Assembly: GCA_028554645.1 (NCBI GenBank) | Contig: JAQOOI010000050.1 | Coordinates: 62,001-126,000, forward strand | Direction of reading: 5' to 3' | DNA from: Omphalotus guepiniiformis | Lineage: Eukaryota; Basidiomycota; Agaricomycetes; Agaricales; Omphalotaceae | Length of the DNA: 64,000 bases | Shown here: piece by piece, positions 1,655-47,058 of the stretch | How the letters are laid out: every line of letters starts with the position of its first letter | Position numbering within the stretch: the stretch's first letter is position 1 | Notes under the pieces: model-generated | Database searches by the model: none | Told to the model about the DNA's origin: nothing | The model's input: the letters and a program-made list of their open reading frames with translations, nothing else | Translations under genes and position numbers: made by a program

Positions 1655-2195
1655 TGTTACGGCTATGCGCCGGAACTCCGGGTCAGACCTCCGGTTTCTA
1701 GAACTTCTTTGATTTCTTCTTCCTGACATCTATTCAATCTTGCCATATGGTTCACTTTACAAATTCACGCTTTCCTATTCGCTTTTATTATTCTTTTCTA
1801 CTCCGGACATCCGAACGTCGCCGACGTTCCATGTTCTTATTGTTCTTTAGTTTCATTCTTCTCACACTATTGTTTTATTACTCCGAGTATCTCTGGTAGA
1901 ATACTCATATAAATACTTCACGCTTATACTGTATATACTTTAGTTTTTAAATCAATTTAGTCTCCGGACTACTATCTTGAATTTCTCGTCTGAACTCTCA
2001 TCTCTCCTCGGACTTCCAATCCGGGTGCAGCACGGGGGGCAGTATCGAAATAATACTGCCTACCGGGTGAAGTCTTGTTGCCGGAGCAATTCGGAGCTCC
2101 TGGTTTATCTTGTCTTGTTCCTTTCGAACTCCTTCTCTCGGACCTCCTCGGAGGTCCTCGCTCTCTTACCGTCTCTAGTCCGCACGGACTTAACA
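1655..2195 (+). repeat. 5' LTR of the first gypsy element
   Basis: 541 bp, TG...CA ends, matching 9603-10143 except at four sites. At all four, one copy has CpG and the other TpG or CpA, the pattern expected from deamination of methylated cytosine. Confidence 0.95.
1908..1915 (+). promoter_or_regulatory. TATA box in the gypsy LTR
   Basis: TATAAATA lies in the middle of the LTR, where the U3 promoter of a gypsy element is expected. The same octamer is present in the 3' LTR. Transcription would start some 30 nt downstream; the exact start is not visible. Confidence 0.5.
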
Positions 2196-2230
2196 GTATT
2201 TAAAAACTCTTCTCTGTGCTGCTATTGATC

Positions 2231-3854
2231 ATGTCACAACATCCTACAAACCCCTTACTTGAGGCTTCACAGTCTCACGCACCATTTTACCAAGGTCGCG
2301 ATCCCAATGCTCTTCGTGAGCGGCGGAGATCCGGTCTTTACTCAGTTCGCGCAAGCGAATTCGTCTCACCAAGCCGAGGCTCACGCCTTTCTCAACAACC
2401 TCCGGTTCTATCGACATTATTTTCACCAGGTCATTTGCCTGGTTTTCGAAATCCTCCGGTAACTCCGACTCGTCGAACTTCCACAATGCTGGGAGTATTA
2501 CCAATACATGAAGACGTTTCCGATACTGCTCCTGAAGAGCAGAATGACGAAGACGATGACATTATCGCAGCGGCGACGGAAGGAGAGGCTGGGGATCAGC
2601 CAGAAGGAATAGGAGGTAATGGTGCGGATCCTGGAGAAGGTGATGAAGGTAATGGTGGTGGTGGACCAGGCCATGGAGGTCCGGGTGGACCTGGCGGGCC
2701 TGGAGGACCAGGTGGAAATGGTGGCGGTGGACCGGGTGGTCCTGGAGGTCCTGGGGAACCTTCCGGGGGTACCGGTGGCACCGGTGATGAAGATTTTAGG
2801 CGGATGATGCAGGAGTTTCTTACCACTAGCATGGCTGGTTTTACTAACATGGCTAGGGCATTTAATACACAGGCATCCGCGGCTCCGGAGAGCAAATCGC
2901 GCTTGAAGGAGCCAGACGTTTTTTGACGGGTCGGATCTGCGGAAGCTCCGAAACTTCATCATTTCCTTGGCCCTTCACCACTCAGATTGGCCTCAATATT
3001 TCTCTTCCGACGATCGTAAGATCACTTTCGCGCTCTCTTATCTGTCTGGATCAGCTCTGGAATATTTCCAGCCAGAGCTACTGAACCCGGATCCGGACGA
3101 TCCTCCGGCATGGATGGTCAATTATCAGGCCTTCATGCAAGAGCTGATGGAAAATTTCGGAGAGTACGATATGGAAGCGGAGGCTGAGCAACGCCTCAGT
3201 GGACTCAAAATGAGGGATACGGATCGAATCCGTAATTACAATGTAAAGTTCGGAGCCTATGCAGCGATGGTTCTTTGGGATCAAGCTGCTCTACGCTGGG
3301 CCTATTATCAAGGTTTGCCATCTCGTATTAAGGACAAACTAATGCGGATCGAGTATCCGAAAACCTATCAGGGGACCCGGAAAGAGGCCACCAAGATTGA
3401 TGCTCGTTACTGGGCTCGCTCTGCTGAAAAGCAGCGAGAACAACGGACGTCTGGTGGAGGCTCCGGTAACTCCGGAAGTGGCTCCTCCACTTCACAATCT
3501 GGCTCGCAGAAGAAGAAGAGTGGCAATCCCAACAAGCCCTCCTCTTCCTCTAACAACCGCTCGTACTCCGGAAACTCCGGATCTGGTTCTGGTTCTGGCT
3601 CCGGTTCTAACTCCGGCAAGACAAATTCCTCTTCGACCACGCCAAAACCATACGCAGATAGGCTAGGAAAGGATGGGAAGTTGACGCAGGCGGAGAAGGA
3701 CAGGCGCCGGAAGTTGAAGTTATGTTTCTTTTGTGGAGGTAATCATACTATGGATAATTGTGATAAGCGGAAGAAGTTGAACGAGGCTCGTGGACGAGCT
3801 TCGGAGGTAACTTCGGAGGACCCCAAACCGACTCCAAAGGAGTCGGAAAAATAG
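2231..3854 (+). pseudogene. gag: gypsy gag (capsid/nucleocapsid), frameshifted
   Basis: Encodes the structural protein that packages element RNA. The start at 2231 (MSQHPTNPLL) is the first plausible Met after the LTR. The N-terminal third has an acidic stretch and a Gly/Pro repeat (GPGGPGG...). Reading stops at a TGA at 2924-2926 directly after a run of six T; one base fewer would fuse it with the frame continuing through the capsid-like region (LHHSDWPQYFSSDDRKI) to 3854. Near the C-terminus, after a Ser/Gly-rich linker, a zinc knuckle CFFCGGNHTMDNC is seen; its middle spacing is three residues (CX2CX3HX4C) instead of the usual four. The single-base insertion makes this copy defective unless ribosomes shift there. 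Confidence 0.85.
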
Positions 3855-6800
3855 TCCGCAGCCCAGATGCCTCGACACAAAATTTGGGTTGCGTTGGCCA
3901 CGATCGTGTCATCTCCGAGGTTACTCTCAACGTGTCCGCTCTTTTACACCACTCTGATTCACTTGTATTACCACTTTGTATCGATCGGAGCTCCTCGGGC
4001 CTCAAGGGCCTCGTTAGGGAGCCCGAAAATCAGTCTACTTCATTTTTGAAATTTTCTACGTTACTTGATTCTGGTTCTTCTCATAGTTTCCTCGATTCAA
4101 AATTTGTTCATGATTATTTTCTTCCGGTAACTCCGGTTCCTCCGGTTCGACTACGCCTTCTTGATGGTTCAACCGCTTCTTCATTAATTGAAGAGCTAGT
4201 TACTTTACCTGTTCAATTTCCTTCCGGGGAGACCTTGTCTCTTGACTTTTTTGTCACTTCTTTGGATTCATCTTGTAAAGCTGTTTTAGGATACAACTTT
4301 CTTACCCGCTACAACCCGTTGGTTGACTGGGTCACAGGAGTTATTTCATTCCGAAACACTGATCAAACAGTTCCATCTCCCATTCCACAGGCTGCATCTT
4401 CAACTTCGGTTGAGGTCGCGTCCATCGACGCATCTCCAACACCTACCTCTCGTCCTCGGAAGGCAAACTTTCCCTTTGAACCCATCTACTCATATCCAAC
4501 CGTCACGCAAATGGGAGCAAGAATTCCGGACCCGTCGGATCCGGATATTGCTTTTATTGGTGCTGCAGCATTCATACGGGCTTGCAAGGAAGCTGGACAA
4601 GATCCCATTGTGATCTACAAACGTCCGGTTGCCTCCGTTACTGGTAACGCAGCATCTATCCATTCACCTGTTGATCTCTCCAGAATACCGGAAGAGTATC
4701 ACGATTTTGCTGACATTTTTGATGAAGGTCTTTCAGAAGTCTTACCACCGTACCGCCCTTACGACCTTAAAATCGACTTAGAGGACGGTGCTGAACCTCC
4801 CCTCGGACGTGTTTACCCACTGTCCGCGAAGGAACTAGAGGCCCTTAGGACTTTCTTGGACAAGCATCTCGCCAACGGATTCATTACGACCTCTTCATCT
4901 AAACACGGAGCTCCGGTATTGTTTGTTCCTAAAAAGAATGGCTCACTCCGTCTCTGTGTAGATTTTCGTGGCTTGAACAAGATTACCCGCAAGGACCGGT
5001 ATCCTTTACCATTAATTTCCGACCTCCTCGACGCTCCTAAAAAGGCGAAAATCTATACCAAGCTTGATCTTCGACATGCTTACCACTTGGTCCGGGTCGC
5101 CGAGGGAGACGAATGGAAAACTGCTTTCCGCACCAGATACAGCTCTTACGAATGGAAGGTCATTCCCGAGGGACTAACCAATGCTCCGGCGGCTTTTCAA
5201 CGGTTTGTAAATGAAATATTTGCCGACTTACTAGATGTCTACGTTATTGTCTACCTGGACGACGTTCTAATCTATTCGGACAACCGAGCAGACCATCGAA
5301 AACATGTCCGCGAAGTTCTCCGACGCCTCCGGAAGCACGGCTTATTCTGCAATCCCAACAAATGTGTCTTCGACTCCGAAACTGTTGAATACCTCGGTTA
5401 CATTCTGTCACTGGACGGTCTTCGGATGTCCGAGGAGAAGGTTAAGGCCATCGTCGATTGGCCCCTTCCTCGACCGGGACGCATCAAAGACATTCAGTCC
5501 TTCCTTGGTTTCTGCAATTTCTACCGCCGTTTCATTTTCAATTATTCTGGTATCGTGGTTCCACTAACTCGTCTTACTCGTAAAGGTATTCCTTGGAAAT
5601 AGTCCGAGGAGTGTCAACATTCTTTTGATTCACTTAAATCTGCTTTTCTTTCCGCTCCTGTTTTAACTCACTGGGAACCTGACCGACAGATAGTCCTGGA
5701 AACGGACGCCTCGGACTACGCTATAGCGGCAATTCTTTCACTTCGTATGGACGATGGAGAAATCCATCCAGTTGCATTCCTGTCTCGGACCCTTCATGCC
5801 GCCGAGCTCAACTACGACACACACGACAAGGAGCTCCTCGCCATCTTTGAATCTTTCCAACACTGGCGGCATTACTTGGAGGGCTCCGCAACGCCGGTCG
5901 ACGTGGTCACAGATCATAAGAACTTGGAGTACTTCAGTACTACCAAGGTCTTGACGCGCCGACAGGTTAGATGGAGTGAATACTTGTCTCACTTTAATAT
6001 GGTAATCCGGTTCTGACCGGGGCGCCTCGGAGCAAAACCTGACACTCTGACTCGACGTTGGGACGTCTACCCAAAAGAGGGAGATAGTACTTACGCTACG
6101 GTCAATCCACAGAATCTGAAACCGATTTTCACCCAAGAACAACTATCGACTTCACTTCGAGCAACTTTCCTAGAAGGTCCGGTCCTTCGCGCTAGTATCA
6201 TTATGGATCTCGACAAACTACACCAGTCGATCCGGGAATCTCTAGCTTCAGACCCGGAGTCCAAGGCAGGTATGTCACTTGCCAATGATGATGCTAACAA
6301 ACGTTGGACTTTAGACAACTCCGGACAACTCCGGCTCGACAGTCGCATTTATGTTCCAGACTCGGGTGACCTGCGGCTTCAGGTACTTCGATATTTCCAT
6401 GACCATCCACTTTCAGGACACTTTGGGCAGAACCGGACACTCGAGGTCATCCGAAGACAGTATACCTGGCCTCGGATCCGAGAGTTCGTCCGGTCCTACG
6501 TGCAATCCTGCACTGTTTGCGGTCGCAACAAGAGCCGTAGACACCGTCCTTATGGTCTTCTTCAACCTCTCCCAGTACCGGAACGTCCTTGGGATTCCAT
6601 ATCCATGGACTTCATTGAACAACTTCCGGATTCTCATGGCTTTACAGCCATTCTAGTCGTGGTAGACAGGGCATCTAAGCAAGCCATTTTTATTCCTACT
6701 TTTGACACCATAACCTCCGAACAGCTAGCCCAACTTTTTGTCCTTCACGTATTCTCCAAACACGGTGTTCCTCGGCATGTCACCTCCGACCGGGGCTCCG

Positions 6801-7690
6801 AGTTTGTCTCGCAGTTTTTTAGGGCTTTAGGTAAAGCGTTGCAGATGGAGCTTCATTACACCTCCGGTTATCATCCGGAGGCTGATGGACAAACTGAACG
6901 AGCTAACCAAACTCTGGAACAGTACATCCGAATTTATTGTTCTTACCAACAGGATGACTGGGATGAACTCTTGGCCATTGCAGAGTTTGCTTACAATAAT
7001 GCTCCGAACGGCTCCACTGGCATTTCGCCCTTCTTTGCCAACAAAGGTTATCACCCAAACCTTTCAATACATCCGGAATACAACCTCGCATCCGACCGGG
7101 CTCGACAGTTTGTGGTCAACCTTGACGAGCTCCACACTTTTCTACGCAATGAGATCACTCTTGCTCAGACTCGTTACAAGGAACAAGCTGACCGGCGGAG
7201 GTCCTCGGCTCCGGAATTTCCCATTGGCTCAGAAGTATATCTTAACGCTAAGCACATTCGTTCTACCCGTCCTACAGCTAAATTTTCCGAGAAATATCTA
7301 GGACCATTTAAAATTCTAGCTCGACCTAGTAACCTTGCCTATACACTACAGCTTCCGGACTACCTCCGGTCCGTACATCCAGTATTCCATGTCTCCCAAC
7401 TCGAACCAGCACCTCCCAACACCATTCCTAACCGCATGCAACCTCCGCCTCCTCCGGTTGAGGTCAACGGTGAAGTTGAATACGAGATCGCTCAAATACT
7501 GGACTCCAAGTTGGATCGGAGACGCCGGAAATGTCTGCTATTGTACTATGTCCAATGGCTTGGTTATAAAGGAACAGATGAAGAATTCTCGTGGGTCTTA
7601 GCTGATGAACTCACGGCTGAAGACTACATCCAGGATTTCCATGTTCGATATCCGGACAAACCTGGACCTCTGTCGAAGTTGATAATCTGA
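3851..7690 (+). pseudogene. pol: gypsy pol: PR-RT-RNaseH-IN-chromodomain, two nonsense codons
   Basis: The frame is -1 relative to gag and has no own ATG, so it was probably read by a -1 shift near GAAAAATAG at the end of gag; that site is not a canonical heptamer. Domains: aspartic protease (LLDSGSS, about residue 72), reverse transcriptase (YLDD, about 468), RNase H (ETDAS, about 616), integrase zinc finger and DDE core (D in MDFIEQ, D in TSDRGSE, E in QTERANQ), and a C-terminal chromodomain (YYVQWLGY, about 1225) of the kind that targets chromoviruses to modified histones. Two stops interrupt one frame: TAG at 5600-5602, in place of the expected Trp, and TGA at 6014-6016, in place of an expected Arg CGA. 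Each needs one transition. Full length would be about 1,279 residues. Confidence 0.9.
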
Positions 7691-7887
7691 TCGGACATCC
7701 TCGGATGTTGACGGTCTTGGTGTTTCTTTCTTTTTACAATTTCTATCTTTCTCTTACCATCACGCTTATCTCATCATAAAAAACAGACATTCATTTATAT
7801 ACAAACAAAACAAAAAAAAGCTATCAAGAAAAAAAAAACAAAAGATATTACAACACCATTTCTTTTCTATTTACATGTCATTCCTAT

Positions 7888-9372
7888 CTACGTCCTACTC
7901 GGGCCTCCGCGCTCTTCCCGTCGTCTTTCAATTTCTTTTCGCCTCTCTGCGAACATTTCTCGCTCCTCCGAGGTATAGCGAGGATTTGTTTCCTCCTCTG
8001 TTCTAATCCTCTCTACCGGGACTTCTCGGACGCCCGTGTAGATTTCGTCCACTTGCTCAAAAAATTCAGTCAACTGGGCGGCCTCTCCGCCCAGTACTCC
8101 TTGGACCATCCTACTGTTCATGACACTAGGAAGGGTTGGCTCTCGGACCTCCGGACGAGCATCCGATCGCTCTGCCTGGTCGCGCTCCCAAGCGAAGTGT
8201 AGTTCCCGGCCCATCTTGGCGAGCCGGATCGAGGCGTTGATTATCGCCTGGTTCATGATGTACGACCCCTGCATAGGAGTCGTGGCACCCATTGCCATTC
8301 CCAAGGCAAGGGCCCAATCGCGGGTTCGCTCCGCCAAGAAAACACCCCAACTAGAGACCTCTTCTCTAGTTGAGTAGACGGCGGCGTCCACATCGTCGAT
8401 CCGCTGGTTGACCAGGTCCAACTCAGAGAGCTCCGTGGAGTCCCGCGGTTCTCCGGCTCGTCCCTCGACCTTCTTCTCTAACCTAGCTAACCTAGACAGT
8501 ATTTCTTCATTTTGCTGCATAAGCAGCTCGAGGGAAGCCGGAGAAAAGGAAGTGGTGGTGGTGCTCGGAGCACTGACTCGCTCCGAAAACGAGCATTTTG
8601 ATTTTTGTTTCCTGCATTCGTCGCAGGAGGTGGATTTGGTGTTCCGAGGGCGCCCGGAACAGTGGTATCGTCGTGCCCGGCACTGCAGGCAGGCGGGTCG
8701 GGAGCTAGGAGCTCCGGTTTCTTCTTCTTCGTCTTCTTCATCTGAAATGACAATAGACTAATATTTTGTTATAACTCAATTCCAATACTGGTATTCATTT
8801 ACTTACCGCTGAAATCACGTTTTTTCTCTTTTTCTTAGGAGACCCACCAGCCTCCGGTTCCTCTTGTGCCTTCCTCTTCCCATCCCTCTTCTCTTTCCTC
8901 CTCCTCGCCTCCTCAGTCTTCTCAATAGCCCTCCTGGCTTTCTTCTCCTCCTCCGCCTCACTTTCCTCCTCGGCCCTCCAGTTCTCCTCATCCAGAATCC
9001 TTTGCGCCTCCTCAACCTCTCTCCTCCTCCGCTCTCGCTCCTCCGCCCTCCACTTTTCTTGCGCCTCCTGACGCCACTCCTGAATCCTCCGGACTTCCTC
9101 TGTCCACTCATTCTTTGCCTTATCGTACTCAGCCCACTCCCTATCTTCTTCCTGTTCAACTAAAAGAACATTGAGTATCGGACATCCGCAGACAGGATAA
9201 ACTCACCCATGGCAATAGCCACTTTTATTCTATCAAACTCCTCCGCATTCTCCGGTGTCTTCCTTCGAGGCAAGGCTGGTTTGACCCTTGGCTCGGGTTC
9301 CGGACGTCCGAATGGCGCCGGAAGGGGGTATTCATTTTCAAAGGTTGGGGTGGTGGCTCGAGTCGCTGGCAT
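7888..9372 (-). CDS. Antisense gypsy accessory gene: Zn(II)2Cys6 coiled-coil nuclear protein
   Basis: Three exons on the minus strand: 9372-9207, 9159-8807 and 8757-7888. The introns are 47 nt (GTGAGT...TTTTAG) and 49 nt (GTAAGT...TATTAG), and all phases agree, giving 462 residues. In order: a Pro-rich start, a long charged helix (about 57-155), a nuclear-localisation-like SPKKKRKN (162-169), a SUMO-interaction-like IVIS followed by eight acidic residues (175-186), and six cysteines at 196, 199, 206, 218, 221 and 228. The spacing CX2CX6CX11CX2CX6C fits the fungal Zn(II)2Cys6 DNA-binding cluster. A heptad-like coiled coil follows (about 249-275), then an unrecognised C-terminal domain. The gene lies wholly inside the element, antisense to pol, between pol and the 3' LTR. 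No lesion is visible although gag and pol are broken. The role is inferred: DNA-binding regulator. Confidence 0.8.
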
Positions 9373-9516
9373 CTTTGTGTTGAGTTTACGGGGTTGAAGA
9401 GCGCGGGGTTGGGGGAACTTAGAGGTTTGCAGGCTAGGCTTTTATATCAATCCAGTGTTTGGCAGGATTTGGTCGATGTTGAAAATTCGGACACATCTCA
9501 CTCCGAGGGGCAGGGT

Positions 9517-9562
9517 CGGACTTGGGACTTGGGACTTGGGACTTGGGACTTGGGACTTGGTA
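9517..9562 (+). repeat. 7-bp tandem repeat
   Basis: About six copies of GGGACTT lie upstream of the 3' LTR, in the region expected to hold the promoter of the antisense gene. Confidence 0.85.
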
Positions 9563-9602
9563 CTTAGGGTTCTTGAGGGCAAGAACCCTAAGAGGGAGAT
9601 AC
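9563..9602 (+). promoter_or_regulatory. Perfect hairpin followed by the polypurine tract
   Basis: CTTAGGGTTCTTG (9563-9575) and its exact complement (9580-9592) flank a 4-nt loop. The purine-rich GAGGGAGATAC follows and touches the 3' LTR at 9603, the position of the plus-strand primer (PPT) in LTR retrotransposons. The hairpin may be incidental or may be part of priming or RNA control. Confidence 0.6.
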
Positions 9603-10143
9603 TGTTACGGCTATGCGCCGGAACTCCGGGTCAGACCTCCGGTTTCTAGAACTTCTTTGATTTCTTCTTCCTGACATCTATTCAATCTTGCCATATGGTT
9701 CACTTTACAAATTCACGCTTTCCTATTCGCTTTTATTATTCTTTTCTACTCCGGACATCCGAACGTCGCCGACGTTCCATGTTCTTATTGTTCTTTAGTT
9801 TCATTCTTCTCACACTATTGTTTTATTACTCCGAGTATCTCCGGTAGAATACTCATATAAATACTTCACGCTTATACTGTATATACTTTAGTTTTTAAAT
9901 CAATTTAGTCTCCGGACTACTATCTTGAATTTCTCGTCTGAACTCTCATCTCTCCTCGGACTTCCAATCCGGGTGCAGCACGGGGGGCAGTATCGAAATA
10001 ATACTGCCTACCAGGTGAAGTCTTGTTGCTGGAGCAATTCGGAGCTCCTGGTTTATCTTGTCTTGTTCCTTTCGAACTCCTTCTCTCAGACCTCCTCGGA
10101 GGTCCTCGCTCTCTTACCGTCTCTAGTCCGCACGGACTTAACA
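9603..10143 (+). repeat. 3' LTR of the first gypsy element
   Basis: 541 bp, same ends as 1655-2195. Three of the four LTR differences are CpG losses in this copy. Confidence 0.95.
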
Positions 10144-10148
10144 GGAGA

Positions 10149-16522: not shown

Positions 16523-19500
16523 CTATCTCTTTGAAGAATGAGCCCTGGTCTGCATTGGAGCATCCCAATCAGGCTCTTCTTCATCTACATCATTGTCAGA
16601 TGCAGCTTCTTCATCAGTGAACTCTTCTAAGTCTTCAACATCAACAGGAATTCTCAACTGAGGAATACTGTCAAAGATATAATCCCTTTCAAGTTCACTA
16701 TCTAACTCTGTGTTTTCATTAACCATGGCTTCTAGCTGTTCACTAGTCAAGTCTATAAGTTCATGAATGTTCTCAGGCAGTTCAATTGGTTCATATCTAG
16801 CAACATGGGGCAGTACTCTGAAGGCAGCAACCTTTTCTCTGAGTACAGTACCATCCATTTGGGCCACAATGTAGGATCCCCCTTTGGTTCTCCTTATTAT
16901 AATCATGGGTCCCAAGTATCTAGGATACATTTTCCTGTCCAAGTTCTTCTCAACTTGTGTATTTCTGACTTGTACTAATGTACTAGGTTTGAAATCAAAG
17001 TCTCTGATAATATTTCTGTATTCTTCTTCATATTGTCTTAGAGTATCTCTCTTGGTAGTATCTATCCTGGATATCATTTCTTGAACATGGGCTCTATGTT
17101 TAGCTAGAGCTTGAGCTCTGTAGCCAATAAGTTCTTCATATGTCAGAATTCTATCTGGTAGTTTTACCAACCAAGTGGACTCAACAATATCTAAGGGTAA
17201 AATAGGTTCAGCACTGGTAACAAGGAAGTATGGTGAACATCCAAGTCCCTTTCTAGCTGTAATTCTATCTGCCCAGAAGACATGCTTGAGAAACCACCAC
17301 CATCTCTTTAGATCTCCCCCTGTAGCTTTTGCAAGGGCAGTTCTAATGTCAAAGTGGGCTCTCTCAATCTTGCCATTGGCTTGTGAATTGTAAGGAGATA
17401 TGTTAATCCCTTTAATTCCATATTTCTCTTCTAGCCATTTAAGCATAGCTCGCATTTGGGGTGCATTGTCAGTTACAACTTTATCAGGATATCCCCATCT
17501 GCATATAATATCATCAAAGAACCATTCTCCCAATGACCTAGCATTGTCAGATCTTAAAGCTCTTCCTTCAGACCAAGATGATAGTGCACATCTGCCATGT
17601 ACAACATCTTTGCAACCATTGCTTGCAGATGATACTTTGAAAACATCAACATGAATCTTCTGAAGCAGAGAGGGAGTGTGGGTAAGAGTGGGAGGAATTT
17701 TCAACAAGTCCATTTTGCGGTTCTGGCAGACTTGGCAGGATTTGACAAACCAATTGACATCACCATTCAAGTCTGGCCACCAAAAACGCTTTTCTATAAG
17801 AGCTTTTGTTGCAAACATTCCTTTATGTCCCAGATGATCATGAGCAGCATGCATCATGTACATCCTTTTCTCTTTAGGCACAACCAGTCTATGCTGGCCT
17901 CCTGTATCATCATTTCTCCTATAGAGACGACCATCTCTGTCTACAAAGAATTTTACAGCTCTGGATAAGAACTTTTTCTGGAGTGTCCCGCTCAATTGAG
18001 TTAGATACTGGTTTCCGTGCAGATATCAGTCTCTAATTAAATCAAGTTGATCATCCAGCTCTTTTGTAGACACAGATCTATGATCTTCCCAGTAAGGGTG
18101 TTCATGTGTCCATTCAGTACCTCCTTCAGGCACAACAAGAGTTTGAGCAAACTGCAACACCGAGTTAGATACTGGATATTGAGTTAGCAACAACGCTCTA
18201 ATGGAATTCAGATGGTGTTCTTCTTCAATGGCTTCTTGCAAATTGTCTTCAAAGTCATCAATTGACTTGGCAACATCCTGCAAGTAACCTCCTCTAGTAT
18301 CTATTTCATCTTTAAAGGACTCAAACTCAAAGGGTGACTCAGTTTCACCATCTCCCATCCTGAATTTCACTGGCAGACCGTCATCTTCATCAATAAATGA
18401 ATCAGGATCTCTAGACGCAGCTCTTTCAGTTGGTATGGTGCCCCTAGGGGGTCTTGATAAACCATCAGGTCCTTTGTGTTCAGTACCTTTGATGTGTACT
18501 AAGGTGAAGTGAAACTTCCTTATTTCTTCAATCCACCTGTTTATAGTTGCATTGGGACCACTACTGGGCTTGTCAAGCATGCCTTTAATGTAGCTTGCAT
18601 CTGTTTCCACAGTAAGTTCCCTACATCCATATGTCTGGTAGTATGTTTGTTGTAAGGCCAACATCAAGCCATAAAGTTCTCTCTTAGGTTGGGAAAACCT
18701 TGCTTCTCTCTCATTTAAAGTAATAGAACCCATCCAATTGTAGTATTTTCTTCTTGGGATCCAGAGGATCTGTTTGGTACAATTGAAAACCAACTGCCAT
18801 CCATGAAGTATCTACTGAAAGGGTGATTCCAGAACTTAAATCATAGTCAATAGGACGGAGTGCTGGAGCATTCCTAATCCCATCTTTAATCATTTCTACA
18901 GCTTCTAACTCTGCAGGACCCATTTGAAACGGTACATCTCCAGTTAAGATTGTTAAAGGTCTAGCTTTCTTAGCATAATTCTTCATGAACATTCTCATCT
19001 GACCAGCAGTGCCCAAAAATGACCGGATATCTTTCTTTTCAGACCATTTTGATGCATCACAAGTCAGAACAACCTCAGCTAGCCGTTCAACTGGTTTTTC
19101 TCCTTCATAACTGATATGATGTCCAACAACATCACCTTCAACTACACAGATAAAAGCTTTGGTACCAGCAAAAGTACCACCAGCATGTTTCATTCTCTGT
19201 ACAATTCTGTTCATATTCTGTAGATGCTCCCACACAAACCTTCTGATGCCAGAATTCTCAGGTATAGTCTCATATCCTCCATCTGGAGTTCCATAACGAG
19301 TAGCTGGACCTTTTACTGGTACATCATCAATGTAAGGTTTAGTTACATGTGGAATTTCATCTCTGAAGATATATGTAACATCATCATGATAGATAGGAAC
19401 AGAGTTTGTTCAACCCATAGGTAACTTCACTAATCTATGTGGGCCAAAAGGTGTCTGGAAGGTTGTAAGATCTCTTAAACTTTCATCAACCAGTCTCTCA

Positions 19501-21975
19501 TCATAGCCAACAAAGATATCCAGCCATCCCAAACATGCTCTTCCAGAAAAGCTTCTAGCTATATCTGCAGTTGCAGGAGGGATTCCTGAATGTTGGATAG
19601 TCACTTTATTGAGTGGTTCCAAACTGTGTACCAATCTTAAGCTTTTTCCATCTTTCTTCAAGACACAGAACCATTTGGATCTATAGGATGAACTAGAAGG
19701 CTCATATACACCAGCATCTATCTTGTCCTTGATCATCTTACACACTTGATCATAGATCCCTGGAGATATAGGAATATTCCTTTCCACCCAAGGTGTGTGA
19801 GGCAATACTGGAAACTTTACTGGAGGAAAGAACTCTGTATTAAAAGTTCCACCTTCAGATGCTTCCCATGCAAATGATTTCTCTTGGACTTCCATGAGAT
19901 GATGTACAAGCTTCATTTCTGCAGACCATAAGAAACCTTCATTATGATTCTTGTCTATAATTTCTTTTCTTTCTTGAATATACCTCTTCCCAGGAGTGAA
20001 CTCTGGTGGATGAGTAGGTAGCTCAGGCATATCCTTTAACGGATCTCCTATGATCTTTCTCTTAATTCGGAACTCTGCAGGCAATGTAGCTTTAACAGGT
20101 TTAACTTTTACAGCAACTGGTTTGTACTTTCTTGAAGCCAATACAGTCACTAACTCAGCAAACTTGTTTCCATTAGCATTTCTGCTCTATCTAGGTCTAA
20201 GAGGCGATTGTTTGTGCCTTTCTTTAACAGATTTACACTTGTCAATCCTCTTTTGTTGACACTTAGATACTGGTTCCTCATTGTATACAGGCGCTGGTGG
20301 AGTATCTAACTCCAGATTTTCATCCAAAGTTTGATTTTCACGCTAGGTACAATACACCTGCTTCTTTTCAGAGTCTACAGAACGATTTAGATATGATCTA
20401 ACTGTATCTGCAGCACCTTTATCTTTTTCTCTTATGGTGGATTCAGCTGCAAACACAAATGCTTCAGCCTTTTCAGGTTCTGAGAACAATTTCGCATCTG
20501 GCAGCTTAAATCCAGCAATAGTAGCATTTCCATTATCATCTATTTCAATACAAACAGCAACCTCTCCCTGATCTCCTATCAGTTCATTAAGGTCCGATGA
20601 AAATTTTGAGTCTCCCCCTCGGGCTTGAGTGGGATACTCGAAGATTTTTGTGTTTCTGGGACAAGTTTTGGTTCACCGGGTACAGGTTTGACCTTTACTC
20701 CATGACCTCTATCATATGTGCCCATTATACACTTCATTCCGCTGTTTGGATCTGTGATAGTGATTTCTTGCTCTCCAGTCTCAAAGTTCCTAATCACACT
20801 GCTTGTCAACACATCAAATGGTCTCCCCAAGAGAACATCATAAGGCACTTTATCTATTACATGTATCTGCATATAGATTGGAATTTCTCCAAAGGTAAAT
20901 GGTACATTCCTAGCTAGTCCCCTTGTTGCTTGCACTTTGCATATGGATTACTGCAGCAGGGTCCCATCTCAGGCCTAAACCAATTGCAACTCTAGTGTCC
21001 ATTGATACAATTTGAGAGCCACTGTCAATGACTGTCTCAATTTGCTGGTCAGAGTAGTTTATCTTTGGATAGATTGCCTTTAGACTGTCAGTCTGACTGG
21101 CTACTATAATGATCTTATCCCTTTCTTCTGAAGGAATATCTCATTGATATTGATTCACAACATCCTTGTGAACCACTGAACCTTTCTTAAGGTCATCTGT
21201 GTCTTCATCTAAGATAATAAACACATCTTCCCTCTCATAGACCATATCATCAACATTAACCATATAGGTTGCCTTAGACAGAGTAACATCTTCCTCAAGT
21301 TGAGTACCATACTCAGGATCATCTTCATCCCTAACCTCTTGAACAAAAGCCTTTATACGCTGTTTATACACTCTACTGTTCTTCAACTTTCTCTGCATGA
21401 TTTTCTTTAGTGCAGGAGGTATAGCAATGAGATCACCACTACTAATATCTATCTCAGACCTAAAGATTTTGTCTGCTATCTCTTCAGCAAGACCAGGTTT
21501 GAACAATGAGTTTCTAAGCTTAAAATCAGGCTCAGATTTGCGCAAAGGCTTTGTATAAACAATAGCATTCTTTGTGTCACTATTCATTCCTTCTCTAGTT
21601 CTGGACTGAGTAATATCACCTTCCTTTGACTTGTGTTGGCTCCCTACAGGCGCTCCCTTTGGTATAGGTGGCCTATCAATTGCCTTTACATTGTCAAATG
21701 GCCGGTTAGATACTCTCCGTGCAGTATCGAACTCCATGTCAGAGGGAGACTCAGGCTCCTCTGTGTCAAATTCAATAGGTAGCTCAAAACAAACTTGTTC
21801 TTTTCTCATGGCAGGAGGTCTGTATTTCTCCTTTTCAGATGGTTTCAAGGTGGGTAACAAGACTTCCATTTTCTTTCTCTTTGCAAGATTAAAATCCTCA
21901 GGAGTTTGACTTGCTCTGTGAGAAGGATGTTGTGAAAATACATCTTCTACACCAAACTCCTTCATTGGAACCTCT
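16523..21975 (-). pseudogene. pol: Family-B gypsy pol: PR, RT, RNase H, DDE integrase, decayed
   Basis: Read from 21,975 down. A long N-terminal linker is followed by an aspartic protease (VIDSGSQ, about 21,030), RT (KLPMG then YIDD at 19,323-19,334), RNase H (VETDASY, about 18,600), integrase zinc finger (HLGHKGMFA to CQVCQNRK), DDE core (HVDVF, TDNAPQM, KIERAHF) and an acidic tail ending at 16,523. Lesions include a TGA at about 21,141, a frameshift near 20,940, another near 20,590, stops near 20,340 and 20,190, a TGA at 19,408-19,410 in place of the Trp expected before TNSV, a frameshift near 18,760 and a TGA at 18,026-18,028. This copy cannot make an active polyprotein. Confidence 0.85.
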
Positions 21976-21983
21976 AGTTTTTT
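21974..21983 (-). promoter_or_regulatory. Canonical -1 ribosomal frameshift site between gag and pol
   Basis: On the minus strand the codons are TCA AAA AAC TAG: the heptamer A AAA AAC in correct phase, immediately followed by the zero-frame stop. A -1 slip continues as LEVPMKEFGVED in the pol frame. A AAA AAC is a well-known slippery site. A downstream pseudoknot was not assessed. Confidence 0.8.
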
Positions 21984-23924
21984 GACTCAGAGGTACTATC
22001 TCTCTTCAGAATCTGCTTTTTCTCCGAGTTAGCAACTGGAGCTAAATTCTGTAGTGTAGTACAAACATGACTGAACTGCGCAACAAGACTGTTTATAGCA
22101 TCTAGTAAACTGTTTTGAGAAGGGCCTGCCATTACAGCAGTATCCTCTTCCTCAAAAGCATACAGATTCTGGTCAACATGAGAGGGAGATTGGTCCCAAC
22201 CATGTCTTCTGGCAATTTCCTCAATCTTATCTTTCTTAGACCAAGTATCTGAAGGATCAGCTCTTGGCCAATACACTCCATCTTTTAATGCCCATTTACC
22301 AGCACTGTTTTTGGTCATCCACCCCAACCTGATAAATCTAAGTTGATGGGAACAGTCCACAGATCTATGTCCAGGTTCATCACACATGTAGCAATTAGAG
22401 TCAGAGTGGTGAATTGTTATGAACAGAAGAGACCTGAGACAACCTAGGAGCATCATTGTGTCCATTAGAATTCATCCCAGACCCAGAATTTTGAATTGGA
22501 GCATTCATGTTCATTCTCATGGAGCTAGATATTACTTGGGTCATTTTTGCCAAGTTAGCAACTGTCTCTGAGAGCTTTGCAAGAGCTGCCAAATTCGATT
22601 CCTGAGCTTATCTGATCTGATTAAACTGATTCTGGTGACTATCCACTGTAGCAGACAACTTCATTGCCCATTGGTCTGGTTCTGCCTTCACAGTAGTTGC
22701 TACTTGGTATGGATCATACAGTTTCCTAGTAGCACTCTGTTCAGGTGTTGGAAGTGCTCTGGAGTAACCCTCAGCTATGCTAGGACCATTCATGAATAAA
22801 CCAAAGTTATAACCACCTGCTCTTTTTACAGAACAGAGTTTTTCAGCCTCAGACATAACATCTTTCAGAGTAAAAGGATCATCTTCTCTCTGAACATGTA
22901 TGTGGCCATTGATTACTTTGTTTTCCAGACGATCCAGAAGCTTTCTTCTGAAAGGTTCATCCAATGCACTCAAGAAACCAGCAACAGCTTCTGAGTTAGA
23001 TACTACAGGTGTAGCACCAGAGGACAGTTTCTCATATTCAATCTCATACTCTCTCTTAAATGCCATCAGTTTCTGAATAGCACCAAGCACAATGAGTTTA
23101 TATTCTTCTACAATAGCATAAAGCTTTTGTCTTGATCCCAGACCTCTGTCTGCAGATTCAGAAAAGTTCTTCATCAAAGCTTCCTTAAATGCAAGCCAAT
23201 CTAACTTTCTGACTGCTTCAAGCCATTGAAACTCTGCTTTAGTATGGAACTCCATATACCTGAGAGCCAACATGACCTTTGCAGCATCAGTCTTAGTTCC
23301 AGTAGAGACAAAGATATTTTCTAACTCTACCAACCATGCAACTAATTCAGATGGATGTCTCTTGTCAAATATGGGTGCATGCTTTGAAACTTTCGGTAAT
23401 TTCTCATTTTGCAACTCTAGGATTGCTGGGGCAGGTATCTGAATATCAGGTGCAATTCCCAAAGATAGTATCTCGCTCCGTGGAGTTAGATTCTTGGTGG
23501 GACCTTGCCCTTGAGTACCTTCTCCAGGATTAGCTTGTTCACCAGTGGTAGACATGTTGTTTCTTTTATCTTTTACAATCCTCACAGGTATTCTCTTATG
23601 AGTCAAGAAAAAGAATTGAGGACTATTAAGAAATTTCCTCTTATTTTTCTTGTATCTAGCTGAAAGTTCAGCAAACTCTGGAAGATTCCTTTCAGGAATA
23701 GGACTAAGGGATGATAGAGACGAAAGTGGACTAGATTCAGGTTCAGGTGACACTTCTTTCTCCTTTCCTTTTGAACTTTTTCTTCTGGGTAACTGGTTCA
23801 GAGGTAATTCTTCTGTTCCAGCTCTCACAGAATTTCTAGTTTGTCTAGGGTGGGTGCTTTTCCTTGAGCTGCTAATTTTGACAAAACAAACTCGAAGTAT
23901 ATAGCTATGTTTTTCTTGCAACAA
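21974..23924 (-). pseudogene. gag: Family-B gypsy gag, decayed
   Basis: The minus-strand frame from 23,924 encodes a basic, Ser-rich lead; a likelier start is MSTTGEQANPGEG near 23,555. A capsid-like region (FDKRHPSELVAWLVELENIF...) runs to a TAA at 22,608-22,610, reading continues in the same frame to about 22,401, then a one-base shift leads to the zinc knuckle CYMCDEPGHRSVDC (CX2CX4HX4C, near 22,350-22,390) and on to a TAG at 21,974-21,976. The TAA and the one-base shift look like lesions; the final TAG is the expected zero-frame stop of a programmed -1 frameshift. Confidence 0.8.
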
Positions 23925-42915: not shown

Positions 42916-45900
42916 ATGTCTTCTTCAGACACACCAAAATTTAAACCTCTCAATAACTCCAACTATCCTGAATGGAGTGGAGATATGATGGCTTGGTTGA
43001 TGCGTATGGGCTATTGGAGATTGGTCTCTGGTGCAGAGTCAAAGCCTACTGAAGGCTCACCTCTGGCCAATTGGGAGATTAAAGCCAGTAAAGCTGCTGG
43101 TGACATCTACCTTTCTCTGGAACAAGATCAGAAGGTTCATGTCAAGTCCTATCTTGCTGGTGGTGATCCTGTTGGCATGTGGTCAGCTCTAGAAAGAGTG
43201 CATGTGTCCAGGACACCAGGTGCACGCTTCAATGCCTATGATGCTCTGTTCAGCATCACAAAGGAGGAGGATGAGAGTTTAGTTGATCTGGGGACAAGGA
43301 TTGAAAATGCAGTCTTCACCATTAGGAATCTCAGAGACAAGGAATATACCTTGGAGAAACTTGATGCAGAGCTGCAAGCTTTGGCCTTAGTCCGTGCATT
43401 GCCCCCAGAATCTAACCTCACTGCAAACTTGCTGCTATTGGACACATTGGACAAGGACAAGATTCTTCAGTACTTCATTGCTGAAGAACAAAATCTGAAA
43501 AGACAGGCAGAGCAGGTGAACAAGGCCAATGCTGCTGCCAAAGCACAAGGCTATATCAAGCCTACCTGGAAGAAGGGGTTCTGTCATTACTGCAAGAAGG
43601 AAGGGCATTGGAAGGCTGAATGTCCCACCTTGAAAGCAAGGAATGAAGGAAAGAGTGGGAATGGGAGATATCAGGCCAATAAGGCTGAAGTGAAAGAGGA
43701 AGATGTTGTTGAAGGTGCTGGCAGTGCAAGTACATTCTCTTCTAATGATACTTCATCTTCTGACATACTTGATTGGAATACAGACACGGGGGCCACTTCT
43801 CATATGACACCACATCACCATTGGATTAGGAATTATACCCCCTATAGAGTACCTATTAAATTGGCTGATGATAGAATTATATATTCTGAAGGTGTAGGAA
43901 ATGTTGTGTTTAGACCAATCATTGATGGAAAAGTATCTAGGGATGTTGAATTTAGTAGAGTACTGCATGTACCTTCACTTAAAAATAATCTGCTTTCTGT
44001 TCTGTACTTAACAAAACATAAAGGCTTTCATGTACATATTTGGTCTGATAGAATGGAATTTGATAGAAATGGTCCTATTCTTTTTACTGCGCGTGTTACT
44101 GCAAATAATGTGGGATACTTGAATGGACATACTATAGATAAGTCTGAAAGCCTTTGTTTGACAACAACTCTACCTCTGGATCTGAAGCTGTGGCACAGGC
44201 GCTTCTGTCATCATGGGCACGATGATATATTGCGCATGAGGGATAATTTGGCAGAGGGCTTGAAACTAGACTCTAATGCAAAGCCAGATCCTGTTTGTGA
44301 ACCTTGTCTGGCTGGCAAGATGCATGCACATCCATTCCATTCCTCACACACCAGAGCTGATACTGTGTTGGGCCTCATTCATTCTGATCTCCATGATGTT
44401 GGTGTACATTCTCCTAGTGGATACAGATACTGGATCACATTCATTGATGACAAGTGGCGCTTCCGTGCAGCACTTCCTCTGAAGAAGAAGAGTGATGCAT
44501 TTGATGCATTCAAGAAGTACAAAGCTTGGGCTGAGAACACCACTGGAGAGAAAATCAAAATCTTTAGATGTGATAAAGGTGGAGAGTACATATCAAAGGA
44601 GTTCATTGCATTTCTGGACAGCTGTGGAATAGAGTGTCAATACACTGTCAGAAATAGGCCTCAACAGAATGGTGTTGCTGAAAGAGCAAATAGAGTGATG
44701 GAGGAAAGGATTGTTGCAATGCTAGAAGAGTCTGGTTTACCAAAGTCATTTTGGGTAGAGTGCCTGGCTGCACTTGTTCATGTGTGGAATTGTTGCCCTA
44801 CATCTGCTGTACCAAACTGCACTCCCTATGAGGGATGGTACAAGAGGAAACCAAAGGTGGATCATCTGAGGGTCTGGGGTTGTGTTGCATATGTGCATGT
44901 TCAGAAGGATAAGAGGAAACACTTGGGATCCCATATGGAAAGGTGTATCTTCATTGGGTATCCAGATGGTGTGAAGGGATGGAGGTTCTGGAATCCTGTC
45001 ACTAAGAAGGTTGTGATCAGTGAGAGAGCTGACTTTGATGAGAGGTACACTTATACAGTCGGATCTTCACAACCACCTTCCAAACCTTCACCTTCCAAAC
45101 CTTCAACTAGTACACCACCCAATACTTTCTATGTTCCTCTTGATGATAATCCTCACTCTGACTCTGACTCTGAGTCAGATGACCCTGCATTACCTGAACC
45201 TGACCATGAGTCCTCTACAGAACAAGACAATACTGGCCCTGAGCAGAATAATGAACCTGCTGATGACAATGATAGTTCTGCAGAGGAGGAACAGATTGAA
45301 CCACCTGAGGATGTCCTTGGAGATAATAGACCAATTGCTTTCCGTAGGTCTGAGCGGAAGAGACAGGCTCCTGGTGAATGGTGGAAAGTGAACCTCCCTG
45401 CTCCCAAGCGAAACAAGGATGCAGATGTGCCAGATGATGATGATAATATGGAGGAAGCCCACATCATGACTGACAATGGTCCAGAGCCTTTGACATTCAA
45501 GCAGGCTATGGATGGACCTAATGCCAGACAATGGCAGGAGGCCATGATGGAGGAGATGAATGCACACCTCACCAATGGCACTTGGGATGTTGTGGAACTT
45601 CCACCAGATAAGAGAGCAATTGGATCTAAATGGGTATTCAAGATAAAGCACAAGGCTGATGGATCCATTGAAAGGTTCAAGGCTAGACTTGTTGCCAAAG
45701 GATTCAGCCAAAGACCTGGTTTTGACTATCTAGAGACATCCTCATCTACTATGAGACAGACTACAATCCGCACTATTCTTGCTCTGGCTGCCATTGAGGA
45801 CTTGCATTTGCGCTCTGTGGATATCTCTCATGCATTCATCAATAGTGACATTGATACAGAGATCTTCATGACACAGCCAGAAGGGTTCACGGAGCGTGGT

Positions 45901-47058
45901 CCTAGATTTGTCTGCAGGCTGAACAAGTCCCTGTATGGGTTAAAGCAGTCACCCAGACTTTGGGGTGAGAAGCTTGCAGGAGTGTTACAATCAATGGGCT
46001 TTAGTCGCACCCAATCTGATCCAAACCTATATGTCTATCAGAAAGATGACATTAAGGTTTTTGTACCTGTGTTTGTGGATGACATCACTCTTGCTTCCAA
46101 GTCAGAGGCATCTTTGGACCACTTTGTGGCAGAGCTAGCAAAGCACTTCAAACTCCGTGACCTGGGTCCTACATCATATCTGCTGGGAATAGAAATCACA
46201 AGAAATAGAAAGGAGAGAAAATTGTATATGGGTCAGAAACAATATATTGTCAACAAACTTAATGAGTTTGGCATGTCTGATTGTAGACCTGTTGGTACAC
46301 CCATGGATCCAGGAGCTGCTCTGTCAACTGCACAGTGTCCAAAGACTGCTGAAGGAAAGGAAGAGATGGCCAGAATTCCATATATTAGTGCTGTTGGCTC
46401 CTTGTTGTATCTTGCTACCACCAGTCGTCCTGATATTGCATACACAGCTAGTGTATTGGCATGGTTCAATTCAAATCCTGGCATGGCACACTGGGTTGCA
46501 GTAAAGCATGCATTCAGATATCTGAAGGGAACAATGGACATGAAGCTTGAATATGGTCCTGATCCCTGCCAGCCAGATCTATTTGTTACATACTGTGATG
46601 CAGACTTTGGTGGTAACAGGGACAACTCAAAGTCCACTAGTGGGTATATGGTCAAACTTGGATCAGGTGTGGTTAGTTGGAGCAGTAAGCTACAGCCCTT
46701 TGTAACACTCTCCTCTACAGAGGCAGAATATGGGGCAGGTGTTGCTGCTGGCAAGGAGATTTGTGCCATGAATAGCCTGTTACAAGATTTGGGATACCAG
46801 ACACCTCAGCCAGCCAGGTTGCTAATGGACAATCAATCCACAATCAAGGTTGCTAAGAATCCTGAGCATCATGGGAGGATGAAGCATCTTGACCGGCATT
46901 ACTACTGGCTGAGAGACCAAGTTGAATACAAGGTCATGGCTCCTGAATATCTGCCTACTGATGAGAATGCAGCTGATTTGCTCACCAAGCCTCTCAGTAA
47001 GCCCAAGGTGGAGAAGTTGAGGGAGATGATGGGATTGCACATAATACAGAACCCCTAG
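42916..47058 (+). CDS. copia Gag-Pol polyprotein
   Basis: 1,380 codons without interruption, starting MSSSDTPKFKPLNNSNYPEW. Order: copia-type Gag; zinc knuckle CHYCKKEGHWKAEC (about 222); aspartic protease DTGA (about 288); pre-integrase zinc motif (LWHRRFCHHGH); integrase DDE (HSDLHD, CDKGGEY, QQNGVAERANR); a Ser/Asp-rich linker; RT (WVFKIKHKADGS, catalytic FVDD about 1054); and RNase H (CDADFGG, STEAEY, DNQSTIKV, HIDxxYH-like HLDRHYYW). In the cytoplasm it would form the particle, copy element RNA and insert the cDNA. All catalytic residues I can check are present, and the length is typical of copia elements. Confidence 0.95.
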   Translation: MSSSDTPKFKPLNNSNYPEWSGDMMAWLMRMGYWRLVSGAESKPTEGSPLANWEIKASKAAGDIYLSLEQDQKVHVKSYLAGGDPVGMWSALERVHVSRTPGARFNAYDALFSITKEEDESLVDLGTRIENAVFTIRNLRDKEYTLEKLDAELQALALVRALPPESNLTANLLLLDTLDKDKILQYFIAEEQNLKRQAEQVNKANAAAKAQGYIKPTWKKGFCHYCKKEGHWKAECPTLKARNEGKSGNGRYQANKAEVKEEDVVEGAGSASTFSSNDTSSSDILDWNTDTGATSHMTPHHHWIRNYTPYRVPIKLADDRIIYSEGVGNVVFRPIIDGKVSRDVEFSRVLHVPSLKNNLLSVLYLTKHKGFHVHIWSDRMEFDRNGPILFTARVTANNVGYLNGHTIDKSESLCLTTTLPLDLKLWHRRFCHHGHDDILRMRDNLAEGLKLDSNAKPDPVCEPCLAGKMHAHPFHSSHTRADTVLGLIHSDLHDVGVHSPSGYRYWITFIDDKWRFRAALPLKKKSDAFDAFKKYKAWAENTTGEKIKIFRCDKGGEYISKEFIAFLDSCGIECQYTVRNRPQQNGVAERANRVMEERIVAMLEESGLPKSFWVECLAALVHVWNCCPTSAVPNCTPYEGWYKRKPKVDHLRVWGCVAYVHVQKDKRKHLGSHMERCIFIGYPDGVKGWRFWNPVTKKVVISERADFDERYTYTVGSSQPPSKPSPSKPSTSTPPNTFYVPLDDNPHSDSDSESDDPALPEPDHESSTEQDNTGPEQNNEPADDNDSSAEEEQIEPPEDVLGDNRPIAFRRSERKRQAPGEWWKVNLPAPKRNKDADVPDDDDNMEEAHIMTDNGPEPLTFKQAMDGPNARQWQEAMMEEMNAHLTNGTWDVVELPPDKRAIGSKWVFKIKHKADGSIERFKARLVAKGFSQRPGFDYLETSSSTMRQTTIRTILALAAIEDLHLRSVDISHAFINSDIDTEIFMTQPEGFTERGPRFVCRLNKSLYGLKQSPRLWGEKLAGVLQSMGFSRTQSDPNLYVYQKDDIKVFVPVFVDDITLASKSEASLDHFVAELAKHFKLRDLGPTSYLLGIEITRNRKERKLYMGQKQYIVNKLNEFGMSDCRPVGTPMDPGAALSTAQCPKTAEGKEEMARIPYISAVGSLLYLATTSRPDIAYTASVLAWFNSNPGMAHWVAVKHAFRYLKGTMDMKLEYGPDPCQPDLFVTYCDADFGGNRDNSKSTSGYMVKLGSGVVSWSSKLQPFVTLSSTEAEYGAGVAAGKEICAMNSLLQDLGYQTPQPARLLMDNQSTIKVAKNPEHHGRMKHLDRHYYWLRDQVEYKVMAPEYLPTDENAADLLTKPLSKPKVEKLREMMGLHIIQNP

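Follow-up and report, generated by a model that had tools for sequence, protein, structure and literature searches.

Near its 3' long terminal repeat (LTR), the retrovirus human T-cell leukaemia virus type 1 (HTLV-1) carries the antisense, spliced gene for HBZ, a coiled-coil nuclear regulator of the basic leucine zipper (bZIP) class. An antisense promoter in the 3' LTR of HTLV is described in the excerpted text of PMC7264820. Among plant Ty3/gypsy retrotransposons, the slot between pol and the 3' LTR holds antisense genes (termed aORF-3R) in Grande (gene23), RIRE2, Retand and PvRetro13, and these are kept in most copies; Grande is credited with a nuclear protein and its own promoter, Retand with a predicted DNA-binding protein, TRP28, and PvRetro13 with an SMC-like domain (PMC7264820 and PMC11963269, as excerpted). 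Their functions are given as unknown, with similar sequences said to be lacking outside transposable elements (excerpts of PMC7264820). In fungi, Boty/BcGypsy1 of Botrytis cinerea has an antisense gene, brtn, between pol and the 3' LTR (PMC7264820 and PMC8365987, likewise in part), and the word ‘antisense’ is absent from surveys of fungal LTR elements (PMC3248453) and of Tcn1-like chromoviruses (PMC2864245). Here we describe a gene in the same slot of a Ty3/gypsy chromovirus, within a 64,000-nucleotide stretch of the genome of the basidiomycete Omphalotus guepiniiformis (the whole stretch analysed, hereafter ‘the window’); it is under selection as a protein gene, and its product is probably a Zn2Cys6-type DNA-binding protein.

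The antisense gene and its element

The gene runs on the minus strand from 9372 to 7888, between pol and the 3' LTR, and encodes 462 residues in three exons. Exon 1 (9207 to 9372, with its ATG at 9372) is kept across copies and is followed by a 47-bp, phase 1 intron (9160 to 9206, GTGAGT..TTTTAG); exon 2 (8807 to 9159) encodes a charged helical region whose end resembles a nuclear localisation signal (NLS); and a 49-bp, phase 0 intron (8758 to 8806, GTAAGT..TATTAG) leads into exon 3 (7888 to 8757), which encodes six cysteines, a coiled coil and a helical domain, and ends with the stop codon. A TATAAAA sequence on the same strand (9440 to 9446) is positioned at -74 relative to the antisense ATG and is not part of the LTR; it is found at this distance in four of the five element copies inspected, with a TATA variant in the fifth.

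Searching the 42.5-Mb genome of the same fungus for the gene produced 32 match rows, corresponding to at least 29 gene copies and one 82-bp fragment. An intact frame (at least 450 residues from the ATG) is present in 20 of the 27 near-complete copies, one ending ten residues early; the non-intact copies comprise five with frameshifts or stops and two with a replaced 5' end. Both introns have GT-AG boundaries in all 27, and among the 20 intact copies exon lengths differ by multiples of three only, with introns varying by single bases or 21 bp. The ratio of non-synonymous to synonymous substitution rates (dN/dS) averages 0.09, with a range of 0.04 to 0.28 (133 of the 153 pairs, those with dS above 0.02, among 18 distinct intact copies), and differences at codon positions 1, 2 and 3 number 2577, 1781 and 12018, respectively. 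Intact frames, GT-AG retention, low dN/dS and the codon-position pattern together confirm that this is a protein gene under selection. An earlier note, made from the sequence of the window alone, had predicted the three exons with good splice sites and the continuous 462-residue frame, which the coordinates and the other copies bear out; it had looked to conservation in sister copies, which the count of intact frames provides, and had named a dN/dS near the neutral value of 1 as evidence against the gene, a value from which the one found is far removed.

The surrounding element occupies positions 1655 to 10143 (8.5 kb) and is a Ty3/gypsy chromovirus, having the gag-reverse transcriptase (RT)-integrase order, a terminal chromodomain, LTRs and a target site duplication. 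Its 541-bp LTRs, both on the plus strand (5', 1655 to 2195; 3', 9603 to 10143), differ by four mismatches and are flanked by the duplication GGAGA (1650 to 1654 and 10144 to 10148), such that the gene lies wholly within a bounded element, again as the earlier note had it. The gag region (2216 to 3854, plus strand) has a broken frame, with open pieces at 2216-2926 and 2967-3854, the second of which matches Pfam Retrotrans_gag at 26.1 bits; pol (3884 to 7690, plus strand) has protease-like, RT and integrase regions, with a chromodomain at the integrase end (7481 to 7642; PF00385, 25.4 bits, cut-off 25.1). Sense gag-pol is broken in this copy: its frame changes near 2926, and stop codons interrupt it at 5602 and 6016.

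CpG occurs at 0.97 of expectation inside the element versus 0.34 (a strong depletion) in the window outside 1655-10143, the pattern one would expect of a young insertion that sits among old, methylated repeats. Elsewhere in the window, an open 1380-residue frame at 42916-47058 (plus strand) looks by eye like a copia-type polyprotein, and several frames at 16523-23924 (minus strand) look like pieces of another retroelement (integrase, RNase H, RT and gag-like).

The predicted protein and its candidate sites

The protein has exactly six cysteines, every one of which falls within CX2CX6CX11CX2CX6C (8593 to 8691, minus strand; residues 196-228); motifs of this kind appear in none of 20,000 composition shuffles of the protein, and the spacing fits the Zn2Cys6 pattern CX2CX6CX5-12CX2CX6-8C. 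In 24 of the 27 near-complete copies the motif precedes any stop, and the six cysteines are invariant in 13 aligned sequences (the motif-less paralogs E and G, discussed below, having been excluded beforehand). Zn_clus is the sole Pfam family listed for the window protein, and its matches are borderline: against a cut-off of 21 bits, the window protein scores 19.6 and its exon 3 alone 20.7, exon 3 of five of six other element copies scores 21.2 to 22.9 and the sixth 16.0, and one paralog outside the element (paralog B) reaches 26.6 as a protein (profile positions 2-35) and 30.1 in the genome search. With Foldseek, the predicted structure of the Cys-plus-coil fragment gives eight PDB matches at E <= 10, all with weak E-values and all to Zn2Cys6 proteins: GAL4 (two), PPR1, Pho7 (two), HAP1 (two chains) and 1cld, which we take to be LAC9. 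Past the cluster, a helix is predicted at fragment residues 59-87, with a predicted local distance difference test (pLDDT) score of 95-97 in its core.

Sequence and model point, then, to a probable Zn2Cys6-type DNA-binding protein with a coiled coil. The two other motifs named in the earlier note, SPKKKRKN and SIVISDEED, are both present: judged by sequence only, SPKKKRK (8822 to 8842, minus strand) is basic and NLS-like, and SIVISD (8740 to 8757, minus strand; found in 26 of the 27 near-complete copies), with the acidic run that follows, resembles a SUMO-interaction motif (SIM). That note's reading of a Gal4-type DNA-binding regulator draws support from Zn_clus, conservation, dN/dS and the exclusively Zn2Cys6 fold matches; we infer that the protein would bind zinc and DNA, enter the nucleus, bind SUMO and have a regulatory role.

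CGG is the usual Zn2Cys6 half-site, and the element is markedly rich in sequences that contain it. Relative to dinucleotide expectation there are 36 CTCCGG (4.0 expected) and 58 TCCGG (12.6 expected), and six other gypsy loci have zero to two CTCCGG each. When the two pol pieces are compared with synonymous shuffles, TCCGG is their most over-represented 5-mer (24 versus 8.1, z 6.2); in the longest open reading frames (ORFs) of seven other loci its z ranges from -1.6 to 2.5. Against shuffles, the antisense gene has 7 TCCGG versus 1.0 and 6 CCGGAG versus 2.1, and the gag piece has 7 CTCCGG versus 1.35. Four CTCCGG sites lie in the 5' LTR and five in the 3' LTR (9624, 9637, 9749, 9839 and 9910), the fourth of the latter starting 17 bp upstream of the sense TATA. 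Pairs of TCCGG spaced by 9-13 bp, a range picked after the data had been seen, number ten, where two jitter controls gave 1.6 and 1.5; in four of these pairs the spacing is exactly 9 bp, giving CGG-N6-CGG, and among CGG direct repeats across the element gaps of 6 and 7 are commonest, with a further high count at 15. HAP1 binds CGG-N6-CGG direct repeats, an arrangement that the 9-bp TCCGG repeats, as candidate sites, resemble.

Relatives of the gene and its history

Three observations go beyond the earlier note: the TCCGG pattern, relatives of the gene near chromosome ends, and a second antisense gene family in sister elements. Homologues outside element copies occur on contigs C1, C4, C5, C13, C15, C41 and C78; those on C1, C4, C13, C15, C41 and C78 have the same domain order as the antisense gene, and eight aligned paralogs are 24-49% identical to the element exon 3. 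Blocks of 0.7-9.6 kb are common to C1, C4, C13, C15, C41 and C78, mostly at 98-99.97% identity, with two pairs lower (97.2 and 94.5%). C78 starts with a CCCCTAA array, at which its homologue is directly truncated, the contig end being about 96 bp away. The other eight contig ends inspected showed no array of this kind, and we call the remaining contigs ‘near-telomeric’ on the basis of block sharing and, in most cases, of closeness to a contig end. A run of about seven divergent paralogs is found on C15. Gene A on C15, the one relative checked for introns, shares both introns with the element gene, phases included; the six cysteines are absent from two paralogs, E and G.

Locus by locus, near-identical blocks bearing divergent Zn-cluster-like paralogs were seen at L038-L044 and L046 (C15, C4, C1, C13, C78 and C41), with paralogs that keep the helical domain and lack the six cysteines at L039:3902-4921 and L039:7019-7978. 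On C5, L045:4163-5053 encodes another protein with CX2CX6C..CX2CX6C, near a helicase at L045:3-1670, and a helicase gene adjoins the C5 family member. Subtelomeric RecQ-like helicases are known in Agaricus (PMC7473861, as excerpted).

In an unrooted tree, a branch with support 72/80 separates the element copies from the near-telomeric genes; midpoint rooting, used for display only, places the element genes within the diversity of the paralogs. Comparison of the nine array loci L038-L046 with the pol pieces and LTR of the window found no match, the positive control L054 being matched. Given the diverse paralogs and the lack of pol or LTR matches in the arrays, we favour capture: the gene was probably acquired by the element from a near-telomeric host family.

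The same slot was compared in six sampled relatives of the element (L047-L052). In L049, L051 and L052 an LTR lies within 40 bp of the pol end, with no antisense gene there. L047 and L048, whose RTs are 58-59% identical, instead have after pol an antisense four-exon gene on the minus strand (L047:5807-6953 and L048:5555-6703) for coiled-coil-like proteins of 327 and 330 residues; these are 55% identical, with a ratio of non-synonymous to synonymous differences per site (pN/pS) of 0.39 at a nearly saturated pS of 0.70, their C-termini have VIDLT with acidic residues, and TATAAAA lies at -76 and -78. Thirteen sizeable copies of this sister gene were found in the genome, and in 11 of them the exon used for the search is free of stops. 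A sister RT match lies some 3 kb from 12 of the copies and some 17 kb from the other, on C12; the further matches, located elsewhere, are a weak one on C27 and, on C20, two fragments that are short and broken. Pfam gave no match at E <= 0.01 for the main exon of the sister gene, and no relationship between the sister gene and the window gene could be detected. In the window element and in L047/L048 the same slot is thus occupied by two antisense genes, unrelated to each other, that both contain introns and have TATAAAA at -74 to -78. In L050, an antisense F-box-like ORF (6422-8191, minus strand) lies just past a chromovirus pol and may be a flanking host gene.

Within the window element's own family, the antisense gene (7888-9372, compared across copies L010-L033) is a hot spot of divergence, which shifts stepwise along the gene. 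Its dS is 0.26-0.51 in 14 of the 15 pairs of six copies (0.07 for L030-L022), and RT dS is 0.01-0.15 among seven copies; in binned comparisons with the window copy, LTRs differ by 0-5% in five of eight copies and by up to 8% in L012 and L033, L023 not being comparable. As the gene diverges stepwise, and far more than LTR and RT, this looks like recombination among elements, by which old gene alleles have been joined with younger pol and LTRs.

A proposed role, its alternatives and known systems

We propose that this is an accessory Zn2Cys6-type antisense gene, captured by the element, whose product binds CGG sites of the element to control its expression or mark its DNA; we give the proposal as a whole about an even chance. 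Transcription would start from a TATA promoter of the gene's own, situated between the ATG and the 3' LTR, and both introns would be spliced out of the transcript; within the element, the introns would survive every round of reverse transcription because the gene is antisense to the genomic RNA. The product would be a DNA-binding protein of the Zn2Cys6 type, belonging to a family whose other members here sit in near-telomeric arrays; as a dimer in the nucleus it would bind half-sites of the CGG type (TCCGG, in many cases repeated directly at a distance of about one helical turn) in the LTR and along gag-pol. Once bound, it might act on the LTR promoter, or serve as a nuclear mark on complementary DNA (cDNA) and integrated copies; the acidic SIM-like motif might connect it with host proteins modified by SUMO. 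We speculate further, and tentatively, that a captured telomere-adjacent Zn2Cys6 gene and an evolved CGG repeat array may together give the element a form of ‘self-addressing’, and that, with an unrelated antisense coiled-coil gene filling the slot in a sister family, antisense regulators may be swappable modules of fungal chromoviruses.

A number of observations weigh against this proposal. The Cys cluster is conserved yet less constrained than the remaining protein (pN/pS 0.20, versus 0.105 in the N-terminal and 0.096 in the C-terminal part, or about 0.10), and the best Zn_clus stretch in the element copies is the second half of the cluster (profile positions 1-15). Among the sites, there is a strand bias (36 CTCCGG versus 5 CCGGAG in the element); TCCGG in the gag piece is without excess over shuffles (8 versus 5.4, P 0.085); and LTR sites are kept no better than other CpGs in 27 LTRs (0.911 versus 0.914), the TATA-proximal CTCCGG of the 3' LTR being altered in the 5' LTR of the same copy. 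Mild enrichment is also seen at non-element loci, with TCCGG at 14 versus 5.7 in L057 (contig C1:9001-15000, beside DUF2264 genes) and CCGGAG at 11 versus 3.3 in L039. Finally, three of the ten close TCCGG pairs fall in a Ser/Gly repeat of gag, and the 9-bp pairs fall from four to two and two in the corresponding stretch of two other copies.

The strand bias and the absence of excess conservation at LTR sites would both sit well with a TCCGG enrichment that is unrelated to the protein and reflects, for example, RNA-level packaging or another signal in the sense transcript; this is quite possible, although we lean against it, as the enrichment is far stronger here than in the six other sampled gypsy loci, the spacing of sites is near one helical turn and CGG is what a Zn2Cys6 protein would usually recognise. 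The alternatives are not all mutually exclusive, and the protein might, rather than regulate a promoter, act on cDNA, coating or compacting the double-stranded form via the many TCCGG sites along gag-pol and delivering it, for integration, to the nucleus or to chromatin marked by SUMO. The enrichment of TCCGG or CTCCGG is indeed not confined to the LTR and extends to pol, gag and the antisense gene, the protein has both NLS-like and SIM-like motifs, and the sister protein likewise ends in VIDLT with acidic residues; an antisense gene with its own TATA, however, would not tie the supply of protein to that of Gag-Pol, and we consider such a ‘companion’ rather doubtful.

As to origin, the unrooted tree, with element copies and near-telomeric genes on opposite sides of its branch, would also accommodate transfer in the reverse direction, whereby a gene borne by the element passed into chromosome ends and multiplied there, the arrays being domesticated or decaying copies. 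The diversity of the paralogs, among which the display-only midpoint root nests the element genes, and the failure of window pol pieces and LTR to match L038-L046 speak against this, and we regard it as unlikely. Retroelement antisense transcripts can be regulatory (excerpts of PMC7264820), such that the antisense RNA, through double-stranded RNA control, might matter in place of the protein; RNA function alone would not be expected to yield a dN/dS of 0.09 or the third-position pattern, which makes this very improbable. Capture of host genes by retroelements is likewise known (PMC7264820, in the same excerpts), but a passenger acquired by chance, with no role for the element, would hardly show a low dN/dS, and an undamaged frame in 20 of the 27 near-complete copies, when synonymous divergence reaches about 0.5, and we think it more improbable still.

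Returning to capture and CGG binding as the preferred reading, the predicted protein is like GAL4, PPR1, HAP1 and LEU3 in its Cys spacing, its basic loops and the coiled coil after the cluster; it differs from Gal4-type regulators in that the best Pfam and LEU3 stretch is the second CX2CX6C, and in being encoded on the antisense strand of a retrotransposon. HBZ of HTLV-1 is alike in its antisense, spliced, coiled-coil layout near the 3' LTR, with no relationship claimed; unlike HBZ, the window gene has its TATA box outside the LTR, and its domain is a zinc cluster. The earlier note had known of no fungal gypsy element with such a gene, which needs qualifying: Boty is a fungal gypsy with brtn in the same slot, set apart by description, in that brtn is not called a zinc-cluster gene in the excerpts of the sources given above. 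Antisense genes between pol and the 3' LTR are thus already known, in plants and in Boty; a Zn2Cys6 antisense gene with host relatives and candidate sites was not found in the literature searched. Compared by description only, the plant aORF-3R elements (Grande, RIRE2, Retand and PvRetro13) resemble the window element in the slot and retention of their genes; unlike theirs, the window gene has a Zn2Cys6-type cluster, two introns, host relatives outside elements and an enriched candidate site within the element. With a domain of the transcription-factor type, a family near chromosome ends as its candidate source and a specific candidate target sequence, it makes the role of an antisense retrotransposon gene testable.
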